Under the pieces are notes generated by a model. That model was not told where the DNA came from and ran no database searches. It worked only from the letters and a program-made list of their open reading frames with translations. From assembly GCA_020848745.1 (NCBI GenBank), contig JADLHM010000061.1, positions 1 through 34,374 on the forward strand: a DNA stretch of 34,374 nt, read 5' to 3'. Position numbers and translations under genes: made by a program. Positions 9,752 through 34,374 of the stretch are shown one piece after another (within the stretch, counting starts at the first letter, position 1; every line of letters begins with the position of its first letter). The stretch comes from Deltaproteobacteria bacterium. Its GTDB lineage: Bacteria; Desulfobacterota; Binatia; UTPRO1.

Positions 9752-12175
9752 ATGCCTGACAAGATTGACGAGGCGGATTACACCCGCCGAGGCACGCTGA
9801 AGGTCGACCAACCGGTCGCCCTTCCCGAAGTCGTCGACGTCTTCGTCGCGGGCGGCGGACCCGCCGGAACCGCGGCGGCGGTGCGCTGCAAGGAGCTCGG
9901 ACTCTCCTGCCTGGTCGTCGACTACGACGATCTGATGAAGCGCATCCGCGACTACCCGAAGGAGAAGCAGATCCTTCCGAGCTACGGGGGCGGCGACAAG
10001 CTCCAGTTCCCGGCCGGTGGCCCGATGCTCGCGGCGCTCGCGTTCGACGACATCGACAAGGACGATCTCGTGAGGGTGTGGAAGGCCAAGTACAAGGAGT
10101 ACGGCCTCACCGCGAAGATCGGCCACGAGTTCACGGGGCTCGACCGGTTGCCCGAGGGCGCGTGGAGCGTGCGTACGTGGAATCACCGGACCGGGGAGGA
10201 AGAGCGCTACCAGGCGCGCAACGTTCTCCTCGCGATCGGCGCCGGCGTGCCGCGCCGCTTCGACATCCCGGGCAACACCGACGGCATCGCGTTCCGTCTC
10301 GACGACGCGAAGGACTACGTCGGGAAACCCGCCCTGGTGATCGGCGGCGGCACGTCCGCGGCGGAGGCGGTCATCGCCATCTCGGGCGTCAAGACTGCGG
10401 CCGAGGACCAGACCGCGGTCTACTGGTCGTATCGCGGCGGCAGCATGCCGAAGGTATCGAAGGCGCTCTCGGACGTCTTCTTCACGGCGTACATCGGGAA
10501 CGGCAACGTTCGCTACCTCGCCTTCTCGGAGCCCGTGGCGGTCGTCACCTGCGACGACAAGCTCGACTACCTGTCGGTGCGGATCGATCGCAAGGTCTCT
10601 CAAGGCAGGCCGTGCGAGACCGTTCATCTCGAGTTCTCGAAGGACCAGGTGGTGGCCTGCATCGGCGAGGACCTGCCGGTGAAGCTCCTGCAGGGCTGCG
10701 GCATCAAGATTCCGCTCGTCAACAACCGCCCGCAGATGCTGGTGAACCACGACGGCGAGGTGTCGCTCACGGGGGTCTTCCTGGTCGGCGACGCGCGCGG
10801 GCCGAAGTACCTCCGCTGCCGCGACTTCGGCGACTCGAGCTCGTACGAGCAGGTCGTCGAGAAGCGCAACATCAAGGCCGCCATGGTCGACGCGGTGAAG
10901 GCGGTCGAGGTGATCGCCGCGCGCGCCGGCATGGACGTGCCGAAGTCCGACGTGGCGCCGACGGCGGCGCCCGCGCCGCCGAAACCGGCGGCGGCGGCCG
11001 CGAGCGCACCGCCGCCCGCGGCCGTCGTGCCGCCGGCGCCGGCGCACGCCGAGGCCGCCAAGCGTCCGGCGAGCGAGGTGCAGCTGGTGAGCCTCCATCC
11101 CGACGACTCGCCGGAGGAGACGTTTCCGCTCACGAAGGATCGAGTCGCGATCGGCAAGAAGGCGCCGGACATCGCCTGCGCCGACGACGTCTACATGGCC
11201 GACACGCACGCGCTCCTCGCCCGCCGGGACGACGAGTACGTGCTCGAGGACCAGAGCGGCGGGGCCGGCGTCTGGCTCCGCGCCAGAGGGCAGGCGGGCC
11301 GGCCGCTCGCGGCGAACGATCTCGTCTGGATCGGCGCGCAGATCCTCATGGTCGTGAAGCAGGGAAGCGGCTGGGCCGCCATCCACTTCAACGCCGAGGG
11401 CGTGCAGCGGGAGACCTATCCGATCCCCGACAAGGGTCTCATCGTCGGCCGGGTCGAGGCCGTGTTCCTCGACAAGGCGGATCTCAGCCTGTCGCGGCGC
11501 CACGCGCAGTTCCGCATCGAAGGCGGGAAGCTCGGCATCTTCGATCTCGGCAGCAAGAACGGCACGTACGTGAAGCTCCTGGCGCCGGCCCCGCTCGCGA
11601 ACGGCGACGAGTTCCGGGTCGCGAGCAAGCGGTTCCGCTTCGAGCGATTCGCGCAGGTGTCGAAGCTCCCGCCGAGCGACGTCGTCGCCGAGACGTCGGT
11701 CGCCGCCGCGCCGGCCGCTGCCGCCGCCGCGCCGGTCGCTGCCGCGGCGGCCGCCGCCGCGGCGGAGCCGGCCGCTCCCGCCGCGGCACCGGCCGCCGCC
11801 GCGGGCGGCCTCGTCGCCGCGCTCGACTACGAAGCGTACAAGCTCACGATCCCGGTCGCGGCGGATCAGGACCTGCTGCACGCGTATTTCCACGAGCTCG
11901 TCACGCGCTTTCCCGATTGCAAGGTCGGCAAGGACGGCGCGCCGCGCGATCACCACGAAGAGCCGCTCGATTGGGAGTGCAAGATCGGCCAGTGCGGGCT
12001 CTGCACCGTCGAGATCGTCGAGGGCGCCGACAACTTCGTGCCCCCCGACCCGGGCGGCATGGAACGTCCCACCATCGAGAAGGTGCGCCAGCTCGACTGG
12101 GATCCCAAGAAGTATCGATTGGCGTGCGTCGCGAAGATCAAAGGTCCCGTGAAGTTGACGATTCCACCCGCCTGA
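9752..12175 (+). CDS. FAD oxidoreductase - FHA - FHA - [2Fe-2S] ferredoxin fusion protein
   Basis: An 807-aa soluble multidomain redox protein. Residues 28 to about 395 are a two-dinucleotide-fold flavoprotein resembling the YpdA/thioredoxin-reductase-like class: FAD loop GGGPAGTAAA (34-43), NAD(P)H loop GGGTSAAEA (198-206) and closing FAD motif GVFLVGDARG (341-350). The redox CxxC of true thioredoxin reductase is absent. An Ala/Pro linker (about 400-440) leads to two FHA-like domains. The first (about 455-535) is degenerate. The second (about 560-630) keeps GR (566-567), SRRH (581-584) and SKNGTYV, as expected for phosphothreonine binding. After a second Ala-rich linker comes a plant-type ferredoxin domain (about 688-807) with C743, C748, C751 and C792 in CX4CX2C...C spacing. 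Likely path: NAD(P)H, FAD, [2Fe-2S], partner. No signal peptide, so cytosolic. First gene of cluster A. Domains are clear and the biological partner is not. Confidence 0.85.
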   Translation: MPDKIDEADYTRRGTLKVDQPVALPEVVDVFVAGGGPAGTAAAVRCKELGLSCLVVDYDDLMKRIRDYPKEKQILPSYGGGDKLQFPAGGPMLAALAFDDIDKDDLVRVWKAKYKEYGLTAKIGHEFTGLDRLPEGAWSVRTWNHRTGEEERYQARNVLLAIGAGVPRRFDIPGNTDGIAFRLDDAKDYVGKPALVIGGGTSAAEAVIAISGVKTAAEDQTAVYWSYRGGSMPKVSKALSDVFFTAYIGNGNVRYLAFSEPVAVVTCDDKLDYLSVRIDRKVSQGRPCETVHLEFSKDQVVACIGEDLPVKLLQGCGIKIPLVNNRPQMLVNHDGEVSLTGVFLVGDARGPKYLRCRDFGDSSSYEQVVEKRNIKAAMVDAVKAVEVIAARAGMDVPKSDVAPTAAPAPPKPAAAAASAPPPAAVVPPAPAHAEAAKRPASEVQLVSLHPDDSPEETFPLTKDRVAIGKKAPDIACADDVYMADTHALLARRDDEYVLEDQSGGAGVWLRARGQAGRPLAANDLVWIGAQILMVVKQGSGWAAIHFNAEGVQRETYPIPDKGLIVGRVEAVFLDKADLSLSRRHAQFRIEGGKLGIFDLGSKNGTYVKLLAPAPLANGDEFRVASKRFRFERFAQVSKLPPSDVVAETSVAAAPAAAAAAPVAAAAAAAAAEPAAPAAAPAAAAGGLVAALDYEAYKLTIPVAADQDLLHAYFHELVTRFPDCKVGKDGAPRDHHEEPLDWECKIGQCGLCTVEIVEGADNFVPPDPGGMERPTIEKVRQLDWDPKKYRLACVAKIKGPVKLTIPPA

Positions 12176-14091: not shown

Positions 14092-14772
14092 ATGGCGAAG
14101 GACGGGGACGACAAGGGCTTCGACGAGCACACGCGGATCGGCGGCGCGCCGCCGAAGCTGCCGGGTATGCTGCCGGCGCCGCCGCCCGCCTCGTCGGCGC
14201 CGCCGGCGCTCGACGAGCACACGCGCGTGCAGTCGGCCCCGCCCCCGATGGCGCCGCGTCCGGCCGCGCCCGCGAGCCCGCCGCCGGCGGCCCCGGCCGC
14301 GGGCGGCGACTTCGCGGAGCGCACGATCCTGCTCTCCGACCTGCAGCCGCAGGGGGCGGCGCCGGCGCGCCTCCAGCGCATGCAGCCGCCGGGGCGCTCC
14401 GACATCGTCACGCTCGATCGTACGCACTATCTGATGGGCCGGCTGCCCTCCTGCGACCTCCGACTCTACTCGCAGACGGCGTCACGCGAGCACGCGCAGC
14501 TGACGGCTCGCGACGGTCGCTGGTACCTCACGCCGGTCACCGGAAAGGTCGTGCTGGTGAACGGCACACAGGTGAAGGAGGAAGTCCCCTTGACGCACAA
14601 AATGCGACTTCAGCTCGGAGGCGACGAGCTGCTCTTCCTCGACGAGAGCGGTGCTCCGGCGGTGCAGGAAGGACCGGCGGCGGGCGCGGTGCCCGGCGCC
14701 GATCGCTGGCTCGTGATCGCGATCGGGTTGCTGGTGCTGGCGGCGGCGCTGTGGATGTGGGCGGACCGGTGA
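14092..14772 (+). CDS. Tail-anchored FHA-domain protein with N-terminal DEHTR motifs
   Basis: A 226-aa protein with three parts. The Pro/Ala-rich N-terminus (1-100) holds repeated Thr motifs: FDEHTRI (T14), LDEHTRV (T44) and a related FAERTIL (T78). An FHA domain spans about 100-185, with MGR (115-117), SREH (131-134) and VLVNG where the NG of the fold is expected. A single C-terminal hydrophobic helix (about 205-222) should leave the rest in the cytosol. FHA domains bind phosphothreonine peptides. The repeated Thr sites look like kinase targets that the same or a neighbouring FHA could bind, as in the GarA/OdhI switch; that is inference. Its stop overlaps the start of the outer-membrane barrel gene (TGATG), tying it to the envelope part of the cluster. 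No kinase gene is in the window. Confidence 0.8.
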   Translation: MAKDGDDKGFDEHTRIGGAPPKLPGMLPAPPPASSAPPALDEHTRVQSAPPPMAPRPAAPASPPPAAPAAGGDFAERTILLSDLQPQGAAPARLQRMQPPGRSDIVTLDRTHYLMGRLPSCDLRLYSQTASREHAQLTARDGRWYLTPVTGKVVLVNGTQVKEEVPLTHKMRLQLGGDELLFLDESGAPAVQEGPAAGAVPGADRWLVIAIGLLVLAAALWMWADR

Positions 14773-16487
14773 TGGCCACCCGCGCGCGCTACGACGTCGC
14801 CCCGTTGGTCGCCTGCGCCGTGCTCGCGTGCGCGTTCGCCGCGCCGACGGCGCGCGCCGAGGACGCTCCCGGCGGCGGACCGAGCGTTACGATCGAGAGC
14901 CCGGCGGTCGGCAGCAACACGCCCGCCACCGAGCCCTTCGAGGACCGCTGGCGGATGGAGCTGCCGCCCTATCAGCTCAACGCCAAGGGCCACTGGTGGG
15001 ATCCCTACAACCAGAACGTCCTCAAGGGCGACATTCCGATCCTCGGCGAAGACATCTTCCTGAAGCTCACCGGCATTTCGAAAACGAGCGTCGAGGGTCG
15101 CGGGGCTCCGTCGCCGAGCGGGGTCTCCACCGAGGACCCGAGCAGCTTCGACTTCTTCGGGAACCGCAACGCGATCCTCTTCGATCAGAAGTTCGTGACG
15201 CGGTTCGAGCTGCAGAAGGGGCAGACCTCGTTCAAGCCGTTCGAGTGGCAGATCGTCCTCGAAGGCGCGTACGACGTGAACCTGCTCGCGACCGGCGAGA
15301 ACGGCATCGTCGACCCCGACGTCCGCGACGCGACCGACCGGCTCACGACCCACGCCGCGCTCCAGGAGGCCTTCGTCGAGATCCACCTGGCGGACACCTC
15401 GGTGAACTACGACTTCCTCTCGACGAAGATCGGCCGGCAGCCCTTCAACAGCGACTTCCGGAGTCTCCTCTTTTCCGACGTGAACCAGGGCATCCGCTTC
15501 TTCGGGAACGCCAACTCGAACCGCTACCAGTACAACCTCGCCTATTTCTATCCGGCCGAGAAGGACACCAACTCCGACCTCAATACGTTCGGGCTCCGCG
15601 ATCAGCAGATCGCCATCGGCAACCTCTACATCCAGGACTTCCTGAAGCTCGGCTACACGACCCAGTTCAGCTTCCACTATCTGAACGACGACGGGAAGGA
15701 CGCCGGCTTCGTCTTCGACAACCAGGGCTTTCTGGTGCGGCCCGACCCGGTCGGCGTCGCGCGGCCGCACGACCTCGACGTCTTCTATCTCGGGTGGACG
15801 GGGGAAGGGCACCTCGGCTGGGTGAACGTCAGCCACGCCTTCTACCAGGCGCTCGGCCACGACACGTCGAACCCGATCGCGGGACGCGACGTGAACATCG
15901 AGGCGCAGCAGGTGTTTCTCGAGCTCTCGATGGACCGCGACTGGATGCGCTATCAGACGTCGGTCTTCTGGTCGTCCGGCGACAGCGACCCGCGCGACGA
16001 CACCGCGCGCGGCTTCGACACCATCCTCGACAACCCGCAGATCATGGGCGGCAGCTTCAGCTATTGGCAGCGCCAGTCGATCCGCGTCACGGATCGCGGC
16101 GGCGTCGCGCTCATGCAGCGTAACAGCGTCGTGCCCGACCTCCGCAGCTCGAAGACCCAGGGCCAGCCGAACTTCGTGAATCCCGGCATCCTGATGGTGA
16201 ACGTCGGCGCGACCGCCGACCTCACCCAGACGGTGAGCCTCATCGGCAACGCCACCTATCTCCGTTTCGTCGACACCGAGCCGCTGCAGCTCCTGCTCAA
16301 GCAGCCCGACGTCCGGCAGGACATCGGCATCGATCTGAGCCTCGGCGTCGAGTACCGGCCCTTCCTCAACAACAACGTCATCGTGAAGGGCTTCGGCGCG
16401 ATTCTCCAGCCGTTCGGCGGCTTCAACGACATCCTGGAGAGCAACACGCTCTACCAGGTCGGCACGGAAGTGGTGCTGGTCTTCTGA
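14772..16487 (+). CDS. Outer-membrane beta-barrel (porin-like) protein
   Basis: A 571-aa exported protein with a Sec signal (helix VAPLVACAVLACAFA, probable cut after ARA near residue 30) and a body of alternating polar/hydrophobic strands typical of outer-membrane barrels. Examples are VTRFELQKGQTSFKPFEWQI, YQYNLAYFYPAEKD and TTQFSFHYLND. It ends YQVGTEVVLVF, a terminal Phe with alternating hydrophobics that fits a BAM recognition signal. No mature Cys is apparent, so it binds no c-type heme itself. It overlaps the upstream FHA gene by 1 nt and lies directly before the decaheme cytochrome. The pairing resembles porin-cytochrome conduits (MtrAB/PioAB type), but I cannot place it in a named porin family; a solute porin is possible. 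Confidence 0.78.
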   Translation: MATRARYDVAPLVACAVLACAFAAPTARAEDAPGGGPSVTIESPAVGSNTPATEPFEDRWRMELPPYQLNAKGHWWDPYNQNVLKGDIPILGEDIFLKLTGISKTSVEGRGAPSPSGVSTEDPSSFDFFGNRNAILFDQKFVTRFELQKGQTSFKPFEWQIVLEGAYDVNLLATGENGIVDPDVRDATDRLTTHAALQEAFVEIHLADTSVNYDFLSTKIGRQPFNSDFRSLLFSDVNQGIRFFGNANSNRYQYNLAYFYPAEKDTNSDLNTFGLRDQQIAIGNLYIQDFLKLGYTTQFSFHYLNDDGKDAGFVFDNQGFLVRPDPVGVARPHDLDVFYLGWTGEGHLGWVNVSHAFYQALGHDTSNPIAGRDVNIEAQQVFLELSMDRDWMRYQTSVFWSSGDSDPRDDTARGFDTILDNPQIMGGSFSYWQRQSIRVTDRGGVALMQRNSVVPDLRSSKTQGQPNFVNPGILMVNVGATADLTQTVSLIGNATYLRFVDTEPLQLLLKQPDVRQDIGIDLSLGVEYRPFLNNNVIVKGFGAILQPFGGFNDILESNTLYQVGTEVVLVF

Positions 16488-16528
16488 TGACGCCCATGCG
16501 GAGCAGGCGCGGCATGGGAGGGTGGACG

Positions 16529-19500
16529 ATGAGCGATCGAACGCGATGGATCGGGGTCGGTTTGGCGATCGCGCTGGGGCTGGCGCCGCTCGGAATGCGC
16601 GGCGATGCGGGCGCCGACGACACCGTCGCGGCGGCGGCCGAAGCCGCGGGCGAGATCCCGGACAGCGCCCCGAAGCTCCTGCGCCAGACGCAGGCCGAGG
16701 CCGACGCCAAGAGCGTCGGCTGCCTCTCCTGTCACCAGGGCATCGAGCCGATGCACGTCTCGGGACAGGTGAACCTCGGCTGCGTCGACTGTCACGGCGG
16801 CAACGGGGGCCCGCAGGCTCGCGGAGCCAAGCCGGGCACCGCCGAGTACGCGGCGGCGCGGCAGGACGCGCACGTGGCGCCCCGGCGCCCCGACGTCTGG
16901 CGTGATCCGAAGAACCCCGACCGCATCAGCTCGGCGAACCCCGAGCGCAGCTACGCGGCGCTGAACGAGGAGTCGCCCGAATACATACGCTTCGTGAATC
17001 CCGGGGACCTGCGCGTCGCGCCGGAAACCTGCGGCGGGTGCCACCTGAACGAGGTGCACCAGGTCGAGCGCAGCCTGATGACGACCTCGGCGCTCCTCTG
17101 GGGCGGCGCCGCGTACAACAACGGCATCCTGCCGGCCAAGCGCTACATCGTCGGCGAGTCGTACACGAAGGACGGGAAGCCGCGGAAGCTCAACACCGTG
17201 CCGCCGCCGACGCCCGAGGAGCAACGCAAGGGCGTGCTGTCGTTCCTCCTGCCGCTCCCGGCGTGGAACGTCGCGCAGCCTCCCGATCCGCTGCGCGCTT
17301 TCGAGCGCGGCGGCAAGATCGACCGGTCGGTCGTATCCGAGGTCGGCAACCCGGGACTCGGCCCGCTCCCCGATCTCCCCGGCAAGCCCGACATGAAGTT
17401 CGGCACGCGCGGACTCGGGACCGATCTCCGTATCAGCGCCGGCGTGCTGAACATCCAGAAGACGCGGCTCAACGACCCGCACCTCTCCTTCCTCGGCACC
17501 AACGACCAGCCCGGCGACTACCGCTCGAGCGGCTGCACCGGCTGCCACGTGGTCTATGCCAACGACAAGGATCCCGTGCACGCCGCGTCGTACGCGAAGT
17601 ACGGACACGACGGGCGCTACTTCGGCAAGGACCCGACGATCCCGAAGGACGAGTCCGGCCACCCGATCGAGCATCGCCTGACGCGCGCGATCCCGACGAG
17701 CCAGTGCATGGTCTGCCACATGCATCAGCCGAACTCGTTCGTGAACACGTTCCTCGGCTACCAGATGTGGGACTACGAGACCGACGGACAGCTGCTGTGG
17801 TCCGCGGAGCAGCGGTACCCGACGGTCGACAAGCCGTGGCCGCTGAACGTCGCGGACTACGAGCCGATGCACGCGAGCCTCCAGCACAACCCCGAGGAGG
17901 CGGCGGCGCGCGGGCTCTGGACCGACCGCGAGTTCCTGAAGAACGTCAGCGCGCTCAACAGCAAGACCAAGGAGACGACCTTCGCCGACTACCACGGCCA
18001 CGGCTGGATCTTCCGCGCCGTCTACAGTCAGGACCGCAAAGGCAACCTGCTCGACAAGAACGGCAAGATCGTCGATCCGAACGATCCGAAGAAGTTCGAC
18101 AAGGCGGTGCACCTGAAGGACATCCACCTCGAGAAGGGGATGCACTGCGTGGACTGTCACTTCCAGCAGGACGTCCACTCGAACGGCAAGATCTACGGGG
18201 AGTATCCCGACGCGATCGAGATCGGCTGCGCCGACTGCCACGGTACGGTCAGCACCTGGGCGACCGTCACGACGAGCGGCCCGGCCGCGCCGGACGGCGG
18301 TACGAGCCTCCTCACAGGCCTCACGCCCTGGGGCGAGCGCCGCTTCGAGTGGATCGGCGGCGAGCTCATCCAGCGCTCCATGTTGGAAGAGGGCAAGGAG
18401 TGGGAGGTGCCGCAGGTCGTCGACGTGATCGACCCGCTCTCCAAGCACTACAACGAGAAGGCGCGCCTCGCGAAGACGATGCGCGCCGACGGCAAGACCT
18501 GGGGCGACGTGCCCGAGAAGGCCGAGGCGCTCGCGCACGGCACCGACACGATGTCGTGCATCTCGTGCCACACGTCGTGGGTCACGAGCTGCTTCGGCTG
18601 CCACCTGCCGCAGCAGGCGAACTGGAAGATCGCGAAGAAGCACTACGACGGCGGCGAGACCCGCAACTGGACTTCGTACAACCCGCAGGTCCTGCGCCAC
18701 GACATCTTCATGCTCGGCAGGCACAGCACGGTGAAGGGCCACACGATCGCGCCCGTCCGCTCGTCGAGCGCCGTCATCATCAGCACCACCAACGCCAACC
18801 GCGAGCGCCAGTACTACCAGCAGCCTCCCGTGTCGGCGGAAGGGTACAGCTCGCAGGCGTTCAACGCGCACTTCGCGCACACCGTGCGCGCCAAGGAGAC
18901 GCGGCAGTGCGACGACTGCCACGTCTCGGCGAGCGGCGACAACAACGCCTGGATGGCGCAGGTGCTGACGCTCGGGACGAATTTCGTGAACTTCGTCGGC
19001 CGCTTCGCGTGGGTCGGCGAGGGCGGGCACGGCCTCGAGGCCGTCGCCGTGACGGAGTGGGACGAGCCGCAGGCGGTGATCGGCTCGAACCTGCACCGCA
19101 TGGCGTATCCCGACAACTTCCAGAGCCACCTCGACCACGACCTCGAGCTGCAGGAGGCGTACGAGCACCCCGGGGTCGACCTCACGAGCCGCGCGGTCGA
19201 CGTGCAGTCGGTGCAGCTCCGCGGCGAATACCTCTACGTCGCGAACGGCCCCGGCGGCTTCCGCGTCTTCGACGTCGCCAACACCGACAACAAGGGCTTC
19301 TCGGAGCGCGTCATCACCGCGCCCGTGTCGCCGCTCGGCCAGCGCGCCTACGTGAAGACGCCGTGGGCGACCGGCGTCGCGCTCCCGACGAACCAGCCGA
19401 TCCACTACGGGCGCGAGCGCAACCCCGTGAACGAAGAGCAGCCGATGCACCCGCTCTACAAGTACGCCTACGTGAGCGACAAGGTCGAAGGACTCGTCGT

Positions 19501-20434
19501 CGTCGACGTCGACATGCTCGCCGACGGCGACCCCCGCAACAACTTCCTCGAGAAGGTGGCGAGCTTCAATCCGGACGGTGCGCTCGACGACGCGCGCTAC
19601 GTCACGATCGCGGGCGAGTACGCCTACGTCCTCTGCAAGCGGGGGCTCGTCGTCGTGAGCATCGCCGACCCCGTGCACCCGAGGATCGTGTCCGAGGTGG
19701 GCGCGCCCGACCTCGTCGAGCCCCGCGCCGTGCAGGTCCAGTTCCGCTACGCGTTCGTGACCGACGCGCGCGGTCTCCGCGTCCTCGACGTCACGAACCT
19801 CGCCGCTCCCCGCTTCGTCGCCGCGCTCGACATCCCCGAGGCGGGCGACCTCACGGTCGCGCGGACCTATGCCTACGTCCCGGCCGGATCGCAGGGCCTC
19901 GCGATCGTGGACGTCGAGCGCCCGGCCAAGCCCGTCCTCTTCCAGATGTTCAACGCCAACGGCGCCCTCGACGACACGCGCGCGGTGCGGGTCGGCGGCA
20001 CCGACGCCAGCATCTTCGCTTACGTGGCGGACGGGAAGAACGGCCTCCGTGTCCTCCAGCTCATCACCCCCGGCGAGACGCCCGGGAGCGCCGGGTTCAG
20101 CCCCGCCCCGACGCCGCGGCTCATCGCGACCCGGCACACCCACGGCCCCGCGCTCGCCCTCTCCCGCGGGCTCGAGCGCGATCGGGCGGTCGACGAGAGC
20201 GGCCACCAGGTGGCCGTATTCGGCCGGCTCGGCGCGCGGCCCTTCACCCGCTCCGAAATGGAGCGACTTTTCCTGCGCGGGGGCGAGGTGTTCACGGTCG
20301 CCAACGCCGCTCCCGGGAAGCCGCGCGCCTTCGTGCGGCCCGAGCTTCCCGAGGCGGGCATGGGGCCGATCGGTGGCCCGGTGGTGCAGCCGGCCGCGCC
20401 CGAGGAAGAGCGGCTTCTGCCCGGACGCCGCTAG
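16529..20434 (+). CDS. Decaheme c-type cytochrome with C-terminal LVIVD-repeat propeller
   Basis: A 1301-aa exported multiheme cytochrome. Signal peptide: RTRW followed by IGVGLAIALGLAPLG, cleaved near residue 30. Ten CXXCH heme sites lie at 65, 85, 168, 336, 393, 540, 567, 677, 688 and 794. The last third (about 885-1200) is a repeat domain with at least six blades such as YLYVANGPGGFRVFDV, YAYVSDKVEGLVVVDV, YAYVLCKRGLVVVSI, YAFVTDARGLRVLDV and YAYVPAGSQGLAIVDV, matching LVIVD repeats, likely a beta-propeller for partner or substrate binding. An in-frame ATG at 16487 overlaps the previous stop, but the ATG at 16529 is preferred: GGGAGGG lies 6-7 nt upstream and the signal peptide follows at once. 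The tight link to the barrel gene suggests a porin-cytochrome pair or a periplasmic or cell-surface redox enzyme. Catalytic activity is unknown. Confidence 0.9.
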   Translation: MSDRTRWIGVGLAIALGLAPLGMRGDAGADDTVAAAAEAAGEIPDSAPKLLRQTQAEADAKSVGCLSCHQGIEPMHVSGQVNLGCVDCHGGNGGPQARGAKPGTAEYAAARQDAHVAPRRPDVWRDPKNPDRISSANPERSYAALNEESPEYIRFVNPGDLRVAPETCGGCHLNEVHQVERSLMTTSALLWGGAAYNNGILPAKRYIVGESYTKDGKPRKLNTVPPPTPEEQRKGVLSFLLPLPAWNVAQPPDPLRAFERGGKIDRSVVSEVGNPGLGPLPDLPGKPDMKFGTRGLGTDLRISAGVLNIQKTRLNDPHLSFLGTNDQPGDYRSSGCTGCHVVYANDKDPVHAASYAKYGHDGRYFGKDPTIPKDESGHPIEHRLTRAIPTSQCMVCHMHQPNSFVNTFLGYQMWDYETDGQLLWSAEQRYPTVDKPWPLNVADYEPMHASLQHNPEEAAARGLWTDREFLKNVSALNSKTKETTFADYHGHGWIFRAVYSQDRKGNLLDKNGKIVDPNDPKKFDKAVHLKDIHLEKGMHCVDCHFQQDVHSNGKIYGEYPDAIEIGCADCHGTVSTWATVTTSGPAAPDGGTSLLTGLTPWGERRFEWIGGELIQRSMLEEGKEWEVPQVVDVIDPLSKHYNEKARLAKTMRADGKTWGDVPEKAEALAHGTDTMSCISCHTSWVTSCFGCHLPQQANWKIAKKHYDGGETRNWTSYNPQVLRHDIFMLGRHSTVKGHTIAPVRSSSAVIISTTNANRERQYYQQPPVSAEGYSSQAFNAHFAHTVRAKETRQCDDCHVSASGDNNAWMAQVLTLGTNFVNFVGRFAWVGEGGHGLEAVAVTEWDEPQAVIGSNLHRMAYPDNFQSHLDHDLELQEAYEHPGVDLTSRAVDVQSVQLRGEYLYVANGPGGFRVFDVANTDNKGFSERVITAPVSPLGQRAYVKTPWATGVALPTNQPIHYGRERNPVNEEQPMHPLYKYAYVSDKVEGLVVVDVDMLADGDPRNNFLEKVASFNPDGALDDARYVTIAGEYAYVLCKRGLVVVSIADPVHPRIVSEVGAPDLVEPRAVQVQFRYAFVTDARGLRVLDVTNLAAPRFVAALDIPEAGDLTVARTYAYVPAGSQGLAIVDVERPAKPVLFQMFNANGALDDTRAVRVGGTDASIFAYVADGKNGLRVLQLITPGETPGSAGFSPAPTPRLIATRHTHGPALALSRGLERDRAVDESGHQVAVFGRLGARPFTRSEMERLFLRGGEVFTVANAAPGKPRAFVRPELPEAGMGPIGGPVVQPAAPEEERLLPGRR

Positions 20435-25416: not shown

Positions 25417-26745
25417 TCACTTCAGCTTCGCGCCCACCGCCGCCAGGCTCGCCGCGAACTGGTCCGGCTTGTATGCGAAGCGGTCGATGGCATCGAGCAT
25501 CGTGCGCATGTCGTTCTTGATGGCGTCGCAGCGGCCGCCCCAGGCCGGACGGCAGAGGGCGCGGATCGCGAGGTAGGACTGCTCGGGACCGCCCGTCGTC
25601 CACCACCAGGGCGTGCTCGGGTTGTCGATGTCGACGCAGTTGGAGCTCTTCGAGCGGCTGAAGCCGAAGCGTTCGGCGAGCTTGGAGCGATCGCCGCTCG
25701 CGGTGACGCGGGCGAGCATGCGCCGCGTCGCACCCTGGTCGATCGTGCCGATCTGGCTCTCCAGCGAGCCGAGCCAGCCGACCATCGCGTCGGACTTCTG
25801 CTTGGCGGCTTGCGGGCTCGACGGGACGGCGGCGGCGACGCCGTTCCAGAGGCCGGCGAGCTCGTCACGCTTCCCGGTCGCGACGCCCGAGAGTACGGCG
25901 TCGACCATGAGGTAGTGGCCGCGCGCCTGGCGGAGCGCGTCGTCCACGAGCTTGTGGTGACAGGTGTAACAATTGCGGTCGGCGAAGTGAGGGAACTGAT
26001 CGAGCGACTGGTAATTGCTGCCGTCGGCGCGTTCGGAGAGCATGCGGAGCGCGTCACGGAGCCCGATGACCTGACCGAGCGCCCAGATCGTCGGATCGAC
26101 GCTGAACGCGCCGGCGGGCAGCTCGTCCTGGTCGTCCCAGTGCTTCATGATCTGCGCGTACGCCACCAGCTCGAACTGGAGGGGCGGGTGGCCGCCGGCG
26201 ACGATCTCATGGTCGATTGCGACGTGGCAGCGGGCGCAATTGCGGGCGCGCAGCACGTAGTCGTCGTTGTCGTAGAAGCCCTTCGAGAAATACTGGCGCC
26301 GCGTCTGCGGCCAATCCTTCTGCGAGTGGGCTTCGAGCCAGAGCTCGGCGGGGCCGTGACAATGCTCGCAGGTGACGCCGTCGCTCTTCTTGTAGCGCCC
26401 GCCCGTCGTGGCCTGCGCGGCGGGGGCGTGGCAGGCGAGGCACTTCTCGCTCTGGGTCGCCTCGATGCCCATGTAGCGGGCGATCGTCTTGCCTTCGTCG
26501 GTCTCGAGGGTGCGGTAAGCGCGGGAATGGCGGTCGATGTTGGTGTTGATCCACTGCGTTCGCGCCGACTTCCACGGGCGCCACTTCGGGTCGGGCTTCT
26601 CGCGGCTCGGGAGACCGGCGCCGTGGCACGTCGGATTGCCGCAGCGGCCGTCGCCGAGGAACCCAGGGCCCGCCGCCGCGGGCGTCGCCGCCGTCAGGAT
26701 CCCGAGGCCGACCAAGGCGATCGGGAGGAACGTCGTACGCATCAT
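25417..26745 (-). CDS. Cytochrome c554-like multiheme c-type cytochrome
   Basis: A 442-aa exported cytochrome: signal peptide MMRTTFLPIALVGLGILTAA, cut near AAA-G (about 25). Four canonical heme sites lie at C102 (CLACH), C126 (CEHCH), C170 (CARCH) and C259 (CYTCH). A fifth candidate at C35 (CGNPTCH) is a CX4CH variant near the mature N-terminus. Spacing and the HCHGPAE segment fit the cytochrome c554 family (PF13435), small periplasmic electron carriers or oxidoreductases. The last 150 residues are helical with no further heme motif. Start at the first of two adjacent ATGs (26743-26745), with GAGGGTGGGG in front. Divergent from the deoxyhypusine-synthase-like gene by about 96 bp. It could shuttle electrons between the membrane and outer-membrane decahemes encoded on either side; that is inference. 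Confidence 0.85.
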   Translation of the reverse strand: MMRTTFLPIALVGLGILTAATPAAAGPGFLGDGRCGNPTCHGAGLPSREKPDPKWRPWKSARTQWINTNIDRHSRAYRTLETDEGKTIARYMGIEATQSEKCLACHAPAAQATTGGRYKKSDGVTCEHCHGPAELWLEAHSQKDWPQTRRQYFSKGFYDNDDYVLRARNCARCHVAIDHEIVAGGHPPLQFELVAYAQIMKHWDDQDELPAGAFSVDPTIWALGQVIGLRDALRMLSERADGSNYQSLDQFPHFADRNCYTCHHKLVDDALRQARGHYLMVDAVLSGVATGKRDELAGLWNGVAAAVPSSPQAAKQKSDAMVGWLGSLESQIGTIDQGATRRMLARVTASGDRSKLAERFGFSRSKSSNCVDIDNPSTPWWWTTGGPEQSYLAIRALCRPAWGGRCDAIKNDMRTMLDAIDRFAYKPDQFAASLAAVGAKLK

Positions 26746-26841
26746 CCCCACCCTCGGCGCGCCGAGTAACACGCGCTACGCGCCGGCCGCAACCGGCACG
26801 CAGACTGGTGCGGCATCGGAATATCGCCTACAAGCGGCGCC

Positions 26842-27822
26842 ATGAGCACCGTCCGAGCCTTCATGGAGAAGCACTTCCTCCACTTCAACAGCCGGGAGAC
26901 GGTCGCCGCCGCGAAGGCGTACGAGGCCCACATCGCCGCGGGCGGCAAGATGCTGGTGGCTCTCGCGGGCGCGATGAGCACCGCCAAGCTCGGGCAGATC
27001 CTGAGCCGCATGATCCGCGCGGGCAAGGTGCACGCCATCAGCTGCACCGGCGCCAATCTCGAGGAGGACCTCTTCAACCTCCTGGCCTACGAGGAATACG
27101 AGATCATCCAGGACTGGCGCGCGCTTTCCGCGCAGGACGAGGCGGATCTCTACGCGCGCGGCTTCAACCGGGTGACGGACACGTGCATCCCCGAGACCGT
27201 CATGCGCCACGTGGAGAGCCGCCTCCTCGAGCGTTGGCAGCTCGCCTGCGAGCGCGGGGAGCGGAAGTTCGAGGCCGAGTTCCTCCACGATCTCTTCCGC
27301 GACGGCAAGATGGAGCAGTTCTACCAGATTCCTGCCGAGAGCAGCTGGCTCCTCGCCGCGTGGGAGAAGGGGATTCCGGTCTACGCGCCCGGCTGGGAGG
27401 ACAGCACGACCGGCAACATGTTCGCGGCCGGCGTCCTGCGCGGGGCGATCCCGCATCACCAGTGCGTGAAGAGCGGCACCGAGCAGATGCAGCACCTGAT
27501 CGAGTGGTACCTGGAGCACTGCGGGGTGAAGGAGGGGAAGCCGAGCGTCGGCTTCTTCCAGGTCGGCGGCGGCATCGCCGGCGACTTCGCGATCTGCGCC
27601 GTCCCGACCATCATCCAGGACCTGCAACGCGACGACGTACCGTACTGGGGCTACTTCGCGCAGATCTCCGACGCCGTGACGAGCTTCGGCGGTTACTCCG
27701 GTGCCGTGCCGAACGAGAAGATCACCTGGGGCAAGCTCGACGTCGAGACGCCGAAGTTCATGATCCAGTCGGACGCGACGATCGTGGCGCCGTTGATCTT
27801 CGCGTATCTCCTCGGCGACTGA
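26842..27822 (+). CDS. Deoxyhypusine synthase-like protein
   Basis: A 326-aa protein of the deoxyhypusine synthase family. In eukaryotes and archaea the family moves the aminobutyl group of spermidine onto eIF5A. Bacterial members include enzymes that make homospermidine or act on unknown substrates. The signature end is clear: NEKITWGKLDVETPK with K298 at the position of the catalytic Lys of the family, then IQSDATIVAPLIFAYLLGD. An NAD-binding core is suggested by LAGAMSTAKLG, CTGANLEEDLF, PGWEDSTTGNMFA and QVGGGIAGDF. The region before WGK differs from the eIF5A-modifying enzymes, and bacteria lack eIF5A, so a polyamine role is more likely. Eight nt before hldD, so possibly co-transcribed. 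No other polyamine gene is near. Confidence 0.85.
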   Translation: MSTVRAFMEKHFLHFNSRETVAAAKAYEAHIAAGGKMLVALAGAMSTAKLGQILSRMIRAGKVHAISCTGANLEEDLFNLLAYEEYEIIQDWRALSAQDEADLYARGFNRVTDTCIPETVMRHVESRLLERWQLACERGERKFEAEFLHDLFRDGKMEQFYQIPAESSWLLAAWEKGIPVYAPGWEDSTTGNMFAAGVLRGAIPHHQCVKSGTEQMQHLIEWYLEHCGVKEGKPSVGFFQVGGGIAGDFAICAVPTIIQDLQRDDVPYWGYFAQISDAVTSFGGYSGAVPNEKITWGKLDVETPKFMIQSDATIVAPLIFAYLLGD

Positions 27823-28974: not shown

Positions 28975-30843
28975 GTGACACGACGACACGCCGATGGTCT
29001 CGAAGGCCAGTGGCTCTCACTCGAAGAGGTCGGCGAGCTCGACTTCTTCAAGAGCAGCAAGCGCGCGAAGCTGAAGCTTCCGACGCTGCTCGGGGCCGCG
29101 CCGGACGCCGAGGAGCCGGCCATCAAGGCCGTCGTGCGGCGCGAGTACGGGCCCGGCGAGATCATCTGCGAGGCCGGCGCCTACGGCTCGACCGCCTTCC
29201 TCCTGGTCGAGGGCAGCGCGACCGCGTTCCTCCCGGAGCAGGTCGAGGCGAAGGGCATCGAGGGACGCACGCGGAGCTCACTTGCCCGGCTCTTCGACGC
29301 CTTCCGGCGCCGCACGCGGAGCGCCGAGCGGACGCCCGGACGTCCCGAGGTCGGCGAGGTGAGCCGCTACGCGACGCTCGCGCACGACCGCCGCCTCGGG
29401 CCCGTGGCGATCCGGCCCGGCGACATCTTCGGCGTCGACACCTGCGTCAATTTCTACCCGCGCGAGGCGACGGTGCGCGCCGAGACCCGATGCGTCGCCC
29501 TCGAGATGCTGCGCTCGGTGCTCGACACGATCCGCGGCGCCGGCGACGCCGTCGACGAGGCATATGCGGCGCGCGCCATCCGCAGTACGCTGCATCAGAG
29601 CGCGCTGCTCGCGGAGTTGAGCGCCCCGCAGCTCGAGACGCTCGCGGCGGCGAGCGCGCTCCTGACCCCCGACTCCGACGGCGTCTCGGACGGTGTCGTC
29701 TACGCGCAGGACGCGGCGGCCGACGCGCTGTATCTCGTGCGCGCCGGCACCATCAAGATGTCGCAGACGAAGGCCGGCGGCGAGTTCATCTTCACCTACC
29801 TCGGCCGCGGCGGGGCCTTCGGCTTCGAAGCGATCATGCCGGCGCGGGCGCGGACGCGGCTCGTCCTGCGCTGCGCGTCGCATCCGACCCTCTTTCGCGA
29901 GATGCCGGTCACGAAACCCGTCACGATCGGCCGCAGCGAGTCCTGCGACATGCCGGTGCCGAAGGAGAGCCGCGCGGTCGGACGGCGCCACTGCCGCGTC
30001 GAGGAGCGGGACGGCGACCTCTGGGTCGTCGATCTCGACAGTACCAACCACACGCTCCTGAACGGCGAGCGCATCCGCGAGGCCATCCTCACCGAGGGCG
30101 ACCGCATCGGCGTCGTCGAGTACGTCTTCGAGGTCGGGCGCGAAGACGTCACCGCGGCCGAGGCGCCGATGGCCGTGCGACTCGCGTGCGCGTCGGGGCT
30201 CGACGGCTTCGAGGTCGTCCGCGTCCCGGCGGACGCGCTCGCCCGCCTCGCCGAGGCGAGCGCGCCGGCCCTCGCCGCCGCGACCCGGGCCGGGCGAGCG
30301 CTCGAGGCGGCCGCGTTCAGCCGCTCGGCGAACGAGCAAGCGATGCTCGAGGCGGCGGTCGATCTCAACCTCTACAACTCACAGAACGTCCTGCTCATCG
30401 ACCTCGACCGCTGCACGCGCTGCGACGAGTGCGTGCGCGCCTGTTCCGACGCCCACGACGGCGTGGCGCGCTTCACCCGCGACGGGCCGCGCGTCGGACG
30501 CTATCTGGTCACGATGGCGTGCCGTTCCTGCACCGATCCGAAATGCATGGTCGGTTGTCCGGTTGGCTCGATCCGTCGCGAGGACTCGCTCGAAATCAAG
30601 ATCGAGGACTGGTGCATCGGCTGCGAGCGCTGCGCGAGCCAGTGTCCGTTCGGAAACATCAATATGGTCGAGCTCGCCGAGCTGAAGAAGCCGCCGCCGC
30701 CGCGCGAGGGTGTGTCGCTGCGCGCCACGGTCTGCGACCTCTGCGCCGGCTACGACGGCCCCAACTGCGTCTACGCCTGTCCCCACGACGCCGCGATCCG
30801 CGTCGCCCCCGGCGCGTTTCTCGCGCCCTCCGACCTCCGGTGA
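28975..30843 (+). CDS. Cyclic-nucleotide-binding / FHA / four-[4Fe-4S] regulatory electron-transfer protein
   Basis: A 622-aa cytosolic protein with an unusual order. A cNMP-binding-like domain (about 50-185) has YGPGEIICEAGAYGSTAFLLVEG and PGDIFGVDTC, with a 45-residue basic insert (about 92-137). A second (about 205-430) has ALYLVRAGTIKM and LGRGGAFGFEAIM, then an FHA module (about 305-390; TIGRS, GRRHC, DSTNHTLLNG), then resumes with VRLACASGLDGFEVVRVPAD, the closing strands of a cNMP fold. The FHA therefore appears inserted inside it. The C-terminal part (about 470-615) is a DmsB/NrfC-like ferredoxin with 16 Cys in four groups: 480/483/486/490, 516/519/524/528, 547/550/553/557 and 587/590/598/602. 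It would carry electrons between a soluble donor and the membrane cytochrome b, whose gene overlaps it by 4 nt (GTGA). Domains are clear; control by cNMP or phosphorylation is inferred. GTG start with GGGAG upstream. Confidence 0.87.
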   Translation: MTRRHADGLEGQWLSLEEVGELDFFKSSKRAKLKLPTLLGAAPDAEEPAIKAVVRREYGPGEIICEAGAYGSTAFLLVEGSATAFLPEQVEAKGIEGRTRSSLARLFDAFRRRTRSAERTPGRPEVGEVSRYATLAHDRRLGPVAIRPGDIFGVDTCVNFYPREATVRAETRCVALEMLRSVLDTIRGAGDAVDEAYAARAIRSTLHQSALLAELSAPQLETLAAASALLTPDSDGVSDGVVYAQDAAADALYLVRAGTIKMSQTKAGGEFIFTYLGRGGAFGFEAIMPARARTRLVLRCASHPTLFREMPVTKPVTIGRSESCDMPVPKESRAVGRRHCRVEERDGDLWVVDLDSTNHTLLNGERIREAILTEGDRIGVVEYVFEVGREDVTAAEAPMAVRLACASGLDGFEVVRVPADALARLAEASAPALAAATRAGRALEAAAFSRSANEQAMLEAAVDLNLYNSQNVLLIDLDRCTRCDECVRACSDAHDGVARFTRDGPRVGRYLVTMACRSCTDPKCMVGCPVGSIRREDSLEIKIEDWCIGCERCASQCPFGNINMVELAELKKPPPPREGVSLRATVCDLCAGYDGPNCVYACPHDAAIRVAPGAFLAPSDLR

Positions 30844-31760: not shown

Positions 31761-33134
31761 ATGGCACGGAACAGCAAAGATCTCGCGAAACGTCTCCGCT
31801 TCGACCGCTTCCCGCGTCCCGATTTCTTCCGACGCTGGTACTGGCTCGTGGGCATGCTGTTCGTCGTCATCGGCGGCGCCGCGTGGTGGGCGCTCCACGC
31901 CGGCACGAAGCAGCGCCAGTACCTGCCGGGACCGGTGTCGCAGGGGCACGCGAGCTTCGGCGACCGCTGTGAGACCTGCCATGCCCCGTACGCCGGGGTT
32001 CCGACCGAGGCGTGCCTCGGCTGCCATACCGACCGCACGCACTCGAAATTCGAGGTGAAGGCGCCGGAGTGCGCTTCCTGCCACGTCGAGCACCGCGCGA
32101 CCGGCGTGTTTCTCGCCGTCTCGAACGCGAGCTGCGTCGATTGTCACGGCGAGCTCGCGTCGACGCGCGAGCAGCCCGAGATCCAGCACTCGATCCGGAC
32201 CTTCGCCGACCACCCGGAGCTCGGGCCGCTCCGCGCCGGGCGCCGCGACCGGGCCGCCGTCCGGTTCGATCACAAGATCCACCTGTCGAGCCGCAAGATC
32301 GATTCCGACGACACGCTCTCGTGCGTCACGTGCCACGTGCCCGCGAAGGACGGCGCGCTCATGCTGCCGATCGACTTCGAGCGGCACTGCAAGAAGTGCC
32401 ATGCGCAGTCGGGGCTCGGCCCGGACTCGTCGGTCGAGGTGGTGCACGAGGCGCCCGACGTCGTGCGCGAGGACCTGAAGGCGAAGCTGCTCTTCGCCGC
32501 CGTGAACAACCCCGACGGCATCTTCGGCTCGACCGATCCGGGCCTTCCGGGCCGCGTCCGCCGCGACCCGCTCGATGCCTCGATCTCCCTCGCCGCGTTC
32601 ATCGACCCGACCAACCCGAAGAGCGCGCTCGCCAAGGCCGAGGCCAGGCTCTACCAGCCGCTCGACCCGAACCTCGGCGACGGCGCCTCGTCGCTCCTCG
32701 ACGCCAACAAGTACTGTTTCTTGTGCCACGACGAAGACGGCACGCGCGCACCGGGCGACCTGCCCAAGATCGAGCCGACCGAGATCCCGACGCGCTGGCT
32801 CGTGCACGGCGAGTTCTCGCACCGGGCGCACGACCTCCTGACGTGCGAGCACTGCCATCCCGACGTGCGCGAGAGCGCCGAAACCATAGACGTGAACCTC
32901 CCGAAGAAGGACGTCTGCCAGCGCTGCCACATCGACGACGAGACGCAGTCGGCGGGCGCGAGCTGCATGCTCTGCCACCTGTACCACGACACCAGCAAGG
33001 ACCACGTGCTGCGGGATGCGCGGCGCAAGGAGATCACCATCGAGGCGATCTTCGGCAAAGAGGCGCCGCGGGCTCAGACGCCCACGCGGCCCGGGTCGAC
33101 GAGACCTGTGCCCTCGCGCTCGCCGCCGAGCTGA
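31761..33134 (+). CDS. Membrane-anchored decaheme c-type cytochrome, 3' end altered by an IS element
   Basis: A 457-aa protein with a basic N-terminus, one uncleaved helix (about 27-46, WYWLVGMLFVVIGGAAWW) and a periplasmic domain with ten CXXCH sites at 70, 85, 104, 125, 188, 210, 319, 362, 386 and 402. Extra His residues (HKIH, HRAH) can be distal ligands. It resembles NapC/cytochrome c7-type chains that take electrons from a membrane quinol-linked partner, here the HX13H cytochrome b encoded 12 nt upstream. The natural coding end is probably lost: after about residue 437 the tail (AQTPTRPGSTRPVPSRS) is Pro/Arg-rich and read out of frame through the 3' end of an IS21-type istA. All ten hemes precede the junction, so function may survive. 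Confidence 0.87.
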   Translation: MARNSKDLAKRLRFDRFPRPDFFRRWYWLVGMLFVVIGGAAWWALHAGTKQRQYLPGPVSQGHASFGDRCETCHAPYAGVPTEACLGCHTDRTHSKFEVKAPECASCHVEHRATGVFLAVSNASCVDCHGELASTREQPEIQHSIRTFADHPELGPLRAGRRDRAAVRFDHKIHLSSRKIDSDDTLSCVTCHVPAKDGALMLPIDFERHCKKCHAQSGLGPDSSVEVVHEAPDVVREDLKAKLLFAAVNNPDGIFGSTDPGLPGRVRRDPLDASISLAAFIDPTNPKSALAKAEARLYQPLDPNLGDGASSLLDANKYCFLCHDEDGTRAPGDLPKIEPTEIPTRWLVHGEFSHRAHDLLTCEHCHPDVRESAETIDVNLPKKDVCQRCHIDDETQSAGASCMLCHLYHDTSKDHVLRDARRKEITIEAIFGKEAPRAQTPTRPGSTRPVPSRSPPS

Positions 33135-33298
33135 TCGACGTCACGCGCCTCAAGCGCATGCTCGCGCTCGCCACGCCGCCTCCACCGACCGCGCCCGCCC
33201 CCGCGCGCCCGCTGGCCGGCACGCGCTATCTCCGCGCCGTCCGCGAATACCGGCTCGGGCGGCCGACCGTCCCGGGGGAGGGCGACCATGACGCCTGA
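33071..33298 (+). pseudogene. istA: istA transposase 3' remnant (IS21 family)
   Basis: In the frame ending TGA at 33296-33298 the sequence reads like the C-terminus of an IS21 IstA transposase: ARVDETCALALAAELIDV, RLKRMLALA, a Pro-rich linker, then GTRYLRAVREYRLGRPT. The DDE catalytic core and N-terminal helix-turn-helix (well over 400 residues) are missing. Its 5' side runs straight into the decaheme cytochrome gene in another frame. The stop overlaps the istB start by 11 nt, the usual IS21 istA-istB coupling. The left limit is estimated from where IstA-like sequence stops making sense. Confidence 0.6.
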
Positions 33299-34097
33299 GA
33301 CGATCACGCCCGAGCTCACCACCGTGCTGCGCCGCTTGAAGCTCGGCCGCCTCCTCGCGACGCTCCCCGCGCGCCTCGTCCTCGCCCGGCAGCAGCAGAT
33401 GCCCTTCCAGGACTTCCTGCTCCTGATCCTGAGCGACGAAGTCGCGCGCCGCGACAGCGCCGCCGTCACCCTCCGTGCCGCCCACGCGCAGCTCGATCCG
33501 ACGATGACGCTCGAGCAGTGGGACGCGACCGCCAAGGTGACCTACGATCGCGCGCTCTGGAACGAGCTCGTCGCGCTCCGCTTCCTCGAGCGCCAGGCCC
33601 ACGTCGCGATCGTCGGCCCGGTCGGCACCGGCAAGACCTTCCTCGCCCACACGCTCGGCTGGCTCGCGTGCCAGCACGGGCGCTCCGTCCTCGCGATCAC
33701 CGCCGATCAGATGCTCAAGCAGCTCAAGCACGCCCGGCTCGATCACACCTACGAGGCCGTGCTGCGCAAGCTCCTCGCCGTCGATCTCCTCCTCCTCGAC
33801 GACTTCGGCCTCGACGCCCTCGATCCCGTCGAGAGTCGCGACACCTACGAGATCCTGAACGAGCGGCATCGCAGTGGGTCGATCGTCGTCACCTCCAACC
33901 GCGGTCCCGACGAGTGGCTCGCCACCTTCGCCGATCCGCTGCGCGCGCAATCGGCCATCGATCGCTTCGTCAACAACGCCTACGACCTCGTCCTCGACGG
34001 CGAGTTGTATCGCCGACGGCAGAAGCCGTCGCTGGACACGGCCCCACCCGCCGGGGCACAGGAGACCCCAACCAAGACACGCTTACGCCGACGCTAA
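33288..34097 (+). CDS. istB: IstB helper ATPase of an IS21-family element
   Basis: A 269-aa AAA+ ATPase that helps the IstA transposase choose and bind target DNA, related to DnaC. Motifs: N-terminal LRRLKLGRLLATLPARL, Walker A GPVGTGKTF (110-118), Walker B LLLLDDFGLDAL near residue 165, and the family run RDTYEILNERHRSGSIVVTSNR with the sensor TSNR. FADPLRAQSAIDRFVNNAY follows, as in other IstB proteins. The length is normal and the reading frame intact. The ATG overlaps the istA remnant by 11 nt. With istA truncated it has no partner here. Confidence 0.92.
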   Translation: MTPETITPELTTVLRRLKLGRLLATLPARLVLARQQQMPFQDFLLLILSDEVARRDSAAVTLRAAHAQLDPTMTLEQWDATAKVTYDRALWNELVALRFLERQAHVAIVGPVGTGKTFLAHTLGWLACQHGRSVLAITADQMLKQLKHARLDHTYEAVLRKLLAVDLLLLDDFGLDALDPVESRDTYEILNERHRSGSIVVTSNRGPDEWLATFADPLRAQSAIDRFVNNAYDLVLDGELYRRRQKPSLDTAPPAGAQETPTKTRLRRR

Positions 34098-34124
34098 CTC
34101 GTCACGCGGGAGGGACGGACCCAG

Positions 34125-34167
34125 GGGGGAATGCTTGTGAGAAGGCCGGGGGGAAAGGTCGTGAGAC
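34125..34167 (+). repeat. Two direct repeats at the right end of the IS21-type element
   Basis: GGGGGGAATGCTTGTGAGA at 34125-34143 and GGGGGGAAAGGTCGTGAGA at 34149-34167 share 16 of 19 positions and start 24 bp apart. Repeats of this kind near IS21-family ends are transposase-binding sites. Confidence 0.65.
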
Positions 34168-34279
34168 GCCACACAGGGCGCGAGAAGCGGTCTTGCGGAG
34201 CCGTGGGGCACGTCCTATACGCGCCCTCCCGGGCCCCCGCGCGGGCTCGCGCCGCACGACGATTCCGGAGGGCGCTTCG

Positions 34280-34374
34280 ATGATCGACGGTCTGGGTCCG
34301 CACCACGAGCGTGCCCTCTCGCGGGAAGGTCCCACCCGTCCGCGCCGCGCGGCGGCGCTCCTGCCGCTCGCCCG
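34280..34374 (+). CDS. 5' end of an unidentified gene, cut by the window edge
   Basis: An ATG at 34280 follows a clear CCGGAGGG ribosome site with good spacing. The 31 visible residues (MIDGLGPHHERALSR, then GPTRPRRAAALLPLA) have a basic stretch leading into hydrophobic residues, so a signal peptide or membrane segment may begin here. Nothing more can be said about its function. Confidence 0.4.
   Translation, partial: MIDGLGPHHERALSREGPTRPRRAAALLPLA

Follow-up and report, generated by a model that had tools for sequence, protein, structure and literature searches.

The window, the whole stretch of 34,374 nucleotides analysed here, belongs to a genome of the Binatia. On its forward strand lies the gene for a 622-aa Fe-S protein, P0001 (28975-30843), followed by the genes of P0002, a membrane protein, and P0003, a decahaem cytochrome c. 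The open reading frame, frame and coordinates of P0001 were verified as right. The protein is predicted to comprise two cyclic-nucleotide-binding (CNB) domains, the second with a nested FHA domain, and a C-terminal domain with four [4Fe-4S] clusters. The first CNB domain (29125-29538, about residues 51-188) has 'FGVDTCVNFYPREATV' as its phosphate-binding cassette (PBC), in which Gly153 and Arg163 are kept and the Glu is lost; residues 95-138 form a low-confidence loop in the AlphaFold2 model. The N-terminal part of the second CNB domain (29542-29844, residues 190-290) extends to the PBC helix, with Gly283 kept and the Glu replaced by Phe284, and its C-terminal part (30166-30324, residues 398-450) contains the PBC Arg402, a strand (405-418) and helices (419-448). 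Between these two parts lies the FHA domain (29848-30153, residues 292-393), which keeps GR at 319-320, R337, H339, N358 and T360, and in which the Ser of 'SRxH' is replaced by Gly336. The HycB/DmsB-type domain (30382-30810, residues 470-612) contains 16 cluster Cys. All of these features are encoded on the forward strand.

The three domain families expected from the preliminary description were all detected in P0001 above the Pfam cut-offs: cNMP_binding (PF00027, 61.7 bits vs 27.5), FHA (PF00498, 58 bits vs 20.7, residues 316-378) and Fer4 (37.2 bits vs 21.1), with five Fer4 models exceeding their cut-offs. Among the best 25 of 63 NCBIfam matches none reached its cut-off. No C-terminal helix-turn-helix of the CRP/FNR type was detected with Pfam up to E 1, the Fe-S domain being found there instead, and Pfam matched P0001 to neither a kinase nor a DNA-binding domain. 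The 16 cluster Cys form four four-Cys motifs; all are kept in 9/9 FHA-bearing rows (alignment A1) and in 61 of the 62 rows of a wider alignment (A2). The sequence relatives of this part in the PDB are of the HycB type (HycB3, 7qv7_A, E 8.5e-12, residues 473-609). The fusion of 16 cluster Cys to cNMP and FHA modules, as first described, thus stands, and the assignment of the C-terminal part as a predicted four-[4Fe-4S] electron-transfer domain of the HycB/DmsB type is supported.

It had also been proposed that the FHA domain breaks the second cNMP fold after GAFGFEAIM, and both the homologues and the structural model agree with this. In P0001 the second CNB domain is interrupted after GAFGFEAIMP and continues at VRLACASGLDGFEVVRV. 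The same stretch is unbroken in FHA-less homologues (FGEMGL..APRSATCTAVDHVEVVRI), in which the PBC helix (FGEMGL) leads straight to the PBC Arg (PRSATC) at the position of the FHA domain in P0001. When 84,980 species genomes were scanned, 79 loci turned up, most of them in Planctomycetota and Acidobacteriota. In the 62 rows of A2 the insert at the PBC site measures 109-113 aa in six rows of the Binatia type (the window clade), 107 aa in three others (L043-L045) and 3-36 aa in 53/53 FHA-less rows. In the AlphaFold2 model of P0001 (62 sequences, mean pLDDT 77.9, FHA blocks 86-96) one CNB fold spans residues 190-450 with the FHA domain within it, and the strand and helices that follow the FHA domain finish the CNB fold. 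The M. loti CNB (4muv) matched model residues 190-450 with Z 16.3 and rmsd 3.1 over 141 of 142 residues, and the FHA domain of GarA (6i2r) matched residues 295-389 with Z 16.8 and rmsd 1.6 over 93 residues. The Foldseek matches listed for the model were tandem CNB regulators and FHA domains, which brought no further insight. Two separate folds with no nesting are ruled out by the FHA-less homologues together with the model. Judged from alignment and predicted structure, the FHA domain sits inside the PBC of the second CNB, between its Gly and its Arg, and there is good support for an electron carrier with a conserved, nested CNB-FHA unit.

Full-length FHA-bearing copies were found in nine of 98 related genomes (that of the window included), which led us to reject a chance or frame artefact as the source of the architecture. 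Three homologues in this set gave matches that skip the FHA domain, covering residues 52-287 and 401-616 of P0001 (G017), 52-293 and 404-615 (G024), and 52-307 and 436-617 (G030). The eight other FHA-bearing copies are 52-89% identical to P0001 (A1). Since no further match at E 1e-60 was detected in 394 other genomes drawn from the phylum, the CNB-FHA-Fe-S form looks rare and narrow.

A second lineage, comprising one MAG each of Acidimicrobiia (L043), Terriglobia (L044) and Solibacter (L045), carries a divergent FHA-like insert at the same PBC site and a clear FHA domain at the C-terminus. The insert scores weakly with the FHA profile of the window clade (1.6-8.2 bits), and the best FHA stretch found by Pfam is the C-terminal one in all three proteins, not the insert; in hhalign its probability was 75% with the window-clade FHA as reference and 86% with the proteins' own C-terminal FHA. 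Nesting in a CNB is supported here also, because the AlphaFold2 model of L044 has an insert of 11 strands (pLDDT mostly 86-96), and the CNB of SthK (4d7t) matches across it on model residues 197-447 (Z 19.2, rmsd 1.6, 138 residues). Among the 50 structure matches listed for this model none fell on the insert alone. In a tree built without the insert, the window clade and L043-L045 were each fully supported and the insert state changed twice; an AU test of one clade for both insert lineages gave p 0.017. These results mildly reject the view that the insert arose once for the two lineages, which possibly represent two separate insertions. The insert may instead have been gained once and lost later. 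Loop inserts of 8-36 aa were found at the PBC site in 19/53 FHA-less rows, and the PBC loop seems to be a hot spot for insertions. An 18-aa insert in this loop occurs in 10/53 FHA-less rows, mostly of Pirellulaceae (L074-L077, L081, L083 and others). In L045 a Ser/Thr kinase gene directly follows the cytochrome gene.

P0001 is part of a three-gene module. The GTG start of P0002 (30840-31748, forward strand) overlaps the stop of P0001 (GTGA). P0002 has two pairs of His 14 residues apart (H80/H94 and H280/H294, A4 numbering), invariant in 10/10 rows; its Pfam scores stayed below the cut-offs for Ferric_reduct (16.6 vs 28) and Ni_hydr_CYTB (13.3 vs 30.1), and it is a probable dihaem b-type subunit by sequence. 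P0003 (31761-33134, forward strand) has 10 CXXCH motifs, a cytochrome c7 match in Pfam and an N-terminal hydrophobic stretch, read by eye as an anchor. Its last residues are altered by an IS21-like element (33089-34374, IstB at 33288-34097), which replaces the sequence after this gene. The combination of Fe-S protein, dihaem-b-like membrane protein and decahaem cytochrome c is conserved in loci of Binatia, Acidobacteriota and Planctomycetota, and relatives of P0002 and P0003 accompany most P0001 homologues. The window contains further genes of note. A cytochrome c554-like protein is encoded on the reverse strand (25420-26772), with relatives near 6/8 FHA-bearing and 46/71 FHA-less loci. On the forward strand, a cytochrome whose 10 CXXCH motifs precede LVIVD repeats (16487-20434) has relatives near 20/71 FHA-less loci; a further FHA protein, which has a hydrophobic stretch at its C-terminus (14092-14772), is encoded just upstream of a decahaem cytochrome gene; and a deoxyhypusine-synthase-like protein (26842-27822), here in a bacterium, lies beside a sugar epimerase.

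A probable partner of P0001 is encoded at 9752-12175 (forward strand), an FAD/NAD(P)-type oxidoreductase with a Pyr_redox_2 domain, two FHA-like domains and, at its C-terminus, a 2Fe-2S domain. Homologues covering most or all of its length were found in the same 9/98 genomes that hold an FHA-bearing P0001 (in two pieces in G004 and G049, and over 7-669 of 807 residues in G080) and in none of the other 89, except for a partial Pyr_redox match in G095. The chance value of this exact nine-genome co-occurrence, 6e-13, ignores kinship and overstates the strength. In 6/9 genomes flavoprotein and Fe-S protein are encoded on one contig, separated by about 2 to 17 kb. A search for a Pyr_redox-FHA partner at 10 other loci, covering their genomes, gave only partial Pyr_redox matches, in 3/10 cases (among them G098, the genome that contains L043). 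A NuoE-NuoF fusion was found near 35/71 FHA-less and 0/8 FHA-bearing loci (neighbour count by tblastn), and some FHA-less proteins have an N-terminal 2Fe-2S/NuoG-like part (L056 and L102, the two scanned). The NuoE-NuoF genes point to NADH as the putative donor at those FHA-less loci, and since NuoE-NuoF neighbours and NuoG-like N-termini both occur among the FHA-less relatives, a pyridine-nucleotide donor would be the general theme. In the window clade the flavoprotein is the more likely donor.

FHA domains usually read phosphorylated proteins; the GR, SRxH and N residues have recognized roles, and the Ser of SRxH contacts the phosphothreonine. In the window clade GR, R337, H339, N358, T360 and NG are invariant in 9/9 rows. 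The Ser is retained in three rows (L007-L009) and is Gly in the other six, P0001 included, so that phosphothreonine binding by its FHA domain may be weak. An earlier neighbour count by tblastn was biased, as its queries came from FHA-bearing loci, and Ser/Thr protein kinase (STPK) and PP2C genes were recounted with profiles in flanks of up to 6 kb. With profile seeds that came from both groups and include some of the tested sequences, such genes were found at 5/8 FHA-bearing and 4/71 FHA-less loci of the 79 from the species-genome scan (Fisher p 2.7e-4, kinship ignored). In G010 a kinase-WD40 gene lies 48 bp upstream of the Fe-S gene on the same strand. A PP2C gene and a cyclase-GAF-FHA gene were found near the operon of G047, and a cyclase-GAF-FHA gene in G054; the encoded FHA-GAF-cyclase proteins lie at L117 3428-5332 and L118 16695-18593. 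No kinase, phosphatase or cyclase was detected near the genes of G004, G080 and G049 (a 3.9-kb contig), though these are FHA-bearing. Directly downstream of the operon in the congeneric genome G001, on the other strand, are genes for a PP2C and a class III cyclase-FHA fusion. In the window genome both are found on another contig (G000:C133), where the cyclase-FHA copy is 97% identical, and the similarity of this contig to G001 ends about where that of the window ends, the point at which the window runs on into the IS21-like element. Given the kinase and PP2C genes that neighbour FHA-bearing loci, the FHA domain is the more plausible of the two inputs proposed for P0001.

The PBC Glu next to the Gly has a role in ribose binding. 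It is present in 52/53 FHA-less rows in each CNB; the Arg is present in 53/53 (first CNB) and 49/53 rows (second CNB). The CNB domains of FHA-less relatives look able to bind cyclic nucleotide. All nine rows of the window clade have another residue in place of the Glu, V/L/I in the first CNB domain and F/L/A in the second, while Gly153/Arg163 and Gly283/Arg402 are kept in 9/9. The first CNB domain has in addition a new Asp after the position of the lost Glu (9/9) and an acidic residue directly after Arg163 (8/9; Glu164 in P0001). Phosphate-binding residues are hence not missing from all homologues, an outcome that would have spoken against the preliminary description. Because of the loss of the Glu in both domains and the acidic residue after the Arg in the first, a cyclic nucleotide is an unlikely ligand in the window clade, and cyclic-nucleotide sensing was probably lost or changed there. 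L043-L045 have an intact Glu and Arg on either side of the insert, and binding may persist there.

These residues bear on the suggestion that P0001 couples two signal inputs to electron transfer. The structural part of this suggestion holds, as the nesting and the fusion to a four-cluster domain are both found; that both inputs work is less likely given that the PBC Glu is missing and that the FHA domain of P0001 itself has Gly in place of the Ser. One could still picture a protein in which either or both CNB domains bind a cyclic nucleotide made by the cyclase-FHA protein, the FHA domain reads phosphothreonine, and both gate electron transfer. The invariant Gly and Arg, the intact residues of L043-L045 and the cyclase genes near the operons of G001, G047 and G054 would fit such an arrangement, and since a cyclase-FHA gene adjoins the G001 operon and has a 97%-identical copy in the window genome, cyclic nucleotide may still matter for the system. 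With both Glu gone throughout the window clade and an acidic residue beside Arg163 in nearly all of its members, we nevertheless consider integration of the two signals unlikely.

The same Gly-Arg pairs raise the question of a different ligand. According to a review of the CRP family, an Arg-Gly pair binds the acid group of cAMP and, in NtcA, that of 2-oxoglutarate (PMC12937710). By this precedent the degenerate pockets of P0001 might sense another small acid, the FHA domain changing only access or specificity. Glu164 could neutralise Arg163, however, and the same review describes salt bridges that fill the pocket in non-allosteric members of the family (PMC12937710); we hold a small-acid sensor to be improbable. 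Of comparably low probability is mere structural decoration, in which a tolerant PBC loop, a Ser-to-Gly change in six of nine FHA domains and FHA domains on both partners would reflect a phosphate-independent dock that holds P0001 to the flavoprotein with no regulation, since the other FHA residues are invariant in 9/9 and kinase/PP2C neighbours are enriched.

The best explanation, which we regard as having about an even chance of being right, is that P0001 is a phospho-regulated CNB-Fe-S electron carrier in a membrane redox module. As the cytosolic electron-carrying subunit, it would connect an FAD/NAD(P)-type oxidoreductase (most likely 9752-12175), through its four [4Fe-4S] clusters, with P0002 and P0003, the two CNB domains serving as the regulatory head of the protein. 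The window clade, with an FHA domain in the PBC of the second CNB, would probably have given up the nucleotide input. The FHA domain would dock on a phosphothreonine of a partner, or on a partner surface in a manner switched by phosphorylation, as in OdhI/GarA. Such docking would shift the PBC together with the helices behind it, and the electron path would thereby be gated or assembled. The anatomy of the protein, the nesting, the conservation, the gene module, the co-occurrence and the neighbours are observed; we infer the identity of the partner, the direction of electron flow, the control by phosphorylation and the gating; a role of the FHA domain as a phospho-responsive gate or dock has moderate support. 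A bolder version, in which the insertion converted the switch from cyclic nucleotide to protein phosphorylation, FHA engagement replacing nucleotide binding, moving the PBC and gating electron flow to the membrane, with two lineages doing so in the same place, is put forward tentatively, as a possibility rather than an expectation.

P0001 is made of known parts in a new arrangement. It shares two CNB folds with tandem CNB regulators (the regulatory domains of PKA and PKG, the M. loti CNB, CRP/FNR) and differs from them by the loss of both PBC Glu, the FHA domain in the second PBC and the four-cluster Fe-S output. The Cys pattern is common to HycB/DmsB/FdhB-type subunits, from which the fusion to CNB and FHA domains sets P0001 apart. 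Uncharacterised FHA-less CNB-CNB-Fe-S proteins of Planctomycetota and Acidobacteriota have the same core (31-42% identity, A2) and the same cytochrome b/decahaem c neighbours, but they lack the FHA domain, retain PBC Glu and Arg, and often have a NuoEF neighbour and, in the two scanned, a NuoG-like N-terminus. Among the structure matches of P0001 was also G-Flamp1 (PDB 6m63), an engineered cAMP sensor in which a whole domain, a fluorescent protein, is inserted in a CNB. That insertion is artificial and the one in P0001 is natural and lies in the PBC; the likeness is one of domain insertion, irrespective of site. The closest FHA folds include those of GarA of mycobacteria (6i2r, above) and OdhI of Corynebacterium (4qcj, Z 16.4). 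Binding and inhibition of 2-oxoglutarate dehydrogenase by FHA proteins of this type are controlled by phosphorylation (PMC10415282), and two sources describe Ser/Thr kinases that control a redox enzyme through an FHA domain (PMC10415282, PMC9769921). In OdhI and GarA the FHA domain is a separate small protein, whereas in P0001 it is nested in the CNB of an electron carrier. Among the papers listed by full-text searches there was none on an architecture combining FHA and cyclic-nucleotide-binding domains with Fe-S, oxidoreductase or insertion, and none on cyclic nucleotide with iron-sulfur and multiheme in Planctomycetes or on CNB with cytochrome c3, 4Fe-4S or NADH; a recurrent match, PMC12419801, concerns VanZ fusions.

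Sensor engineering makes use of domains inserted into CNB folds. P0001 is a natural case, with the insertion in the ligand cassette and an electron carrier as the host protein. Its FHA-less relatives display how the fold looks when the insert is absent, and the exact co-occurrence with an FHA-bearing flavoprotein provides a testable partner. If the proposed gating is true, P0001 would be a direct example of one signal input rewired to another with the output kept, and an uncultured group of bacteria would have a respiratory-type complex in which Ser/Thr phosphorylation and cyclic-nucleotide logic meet.
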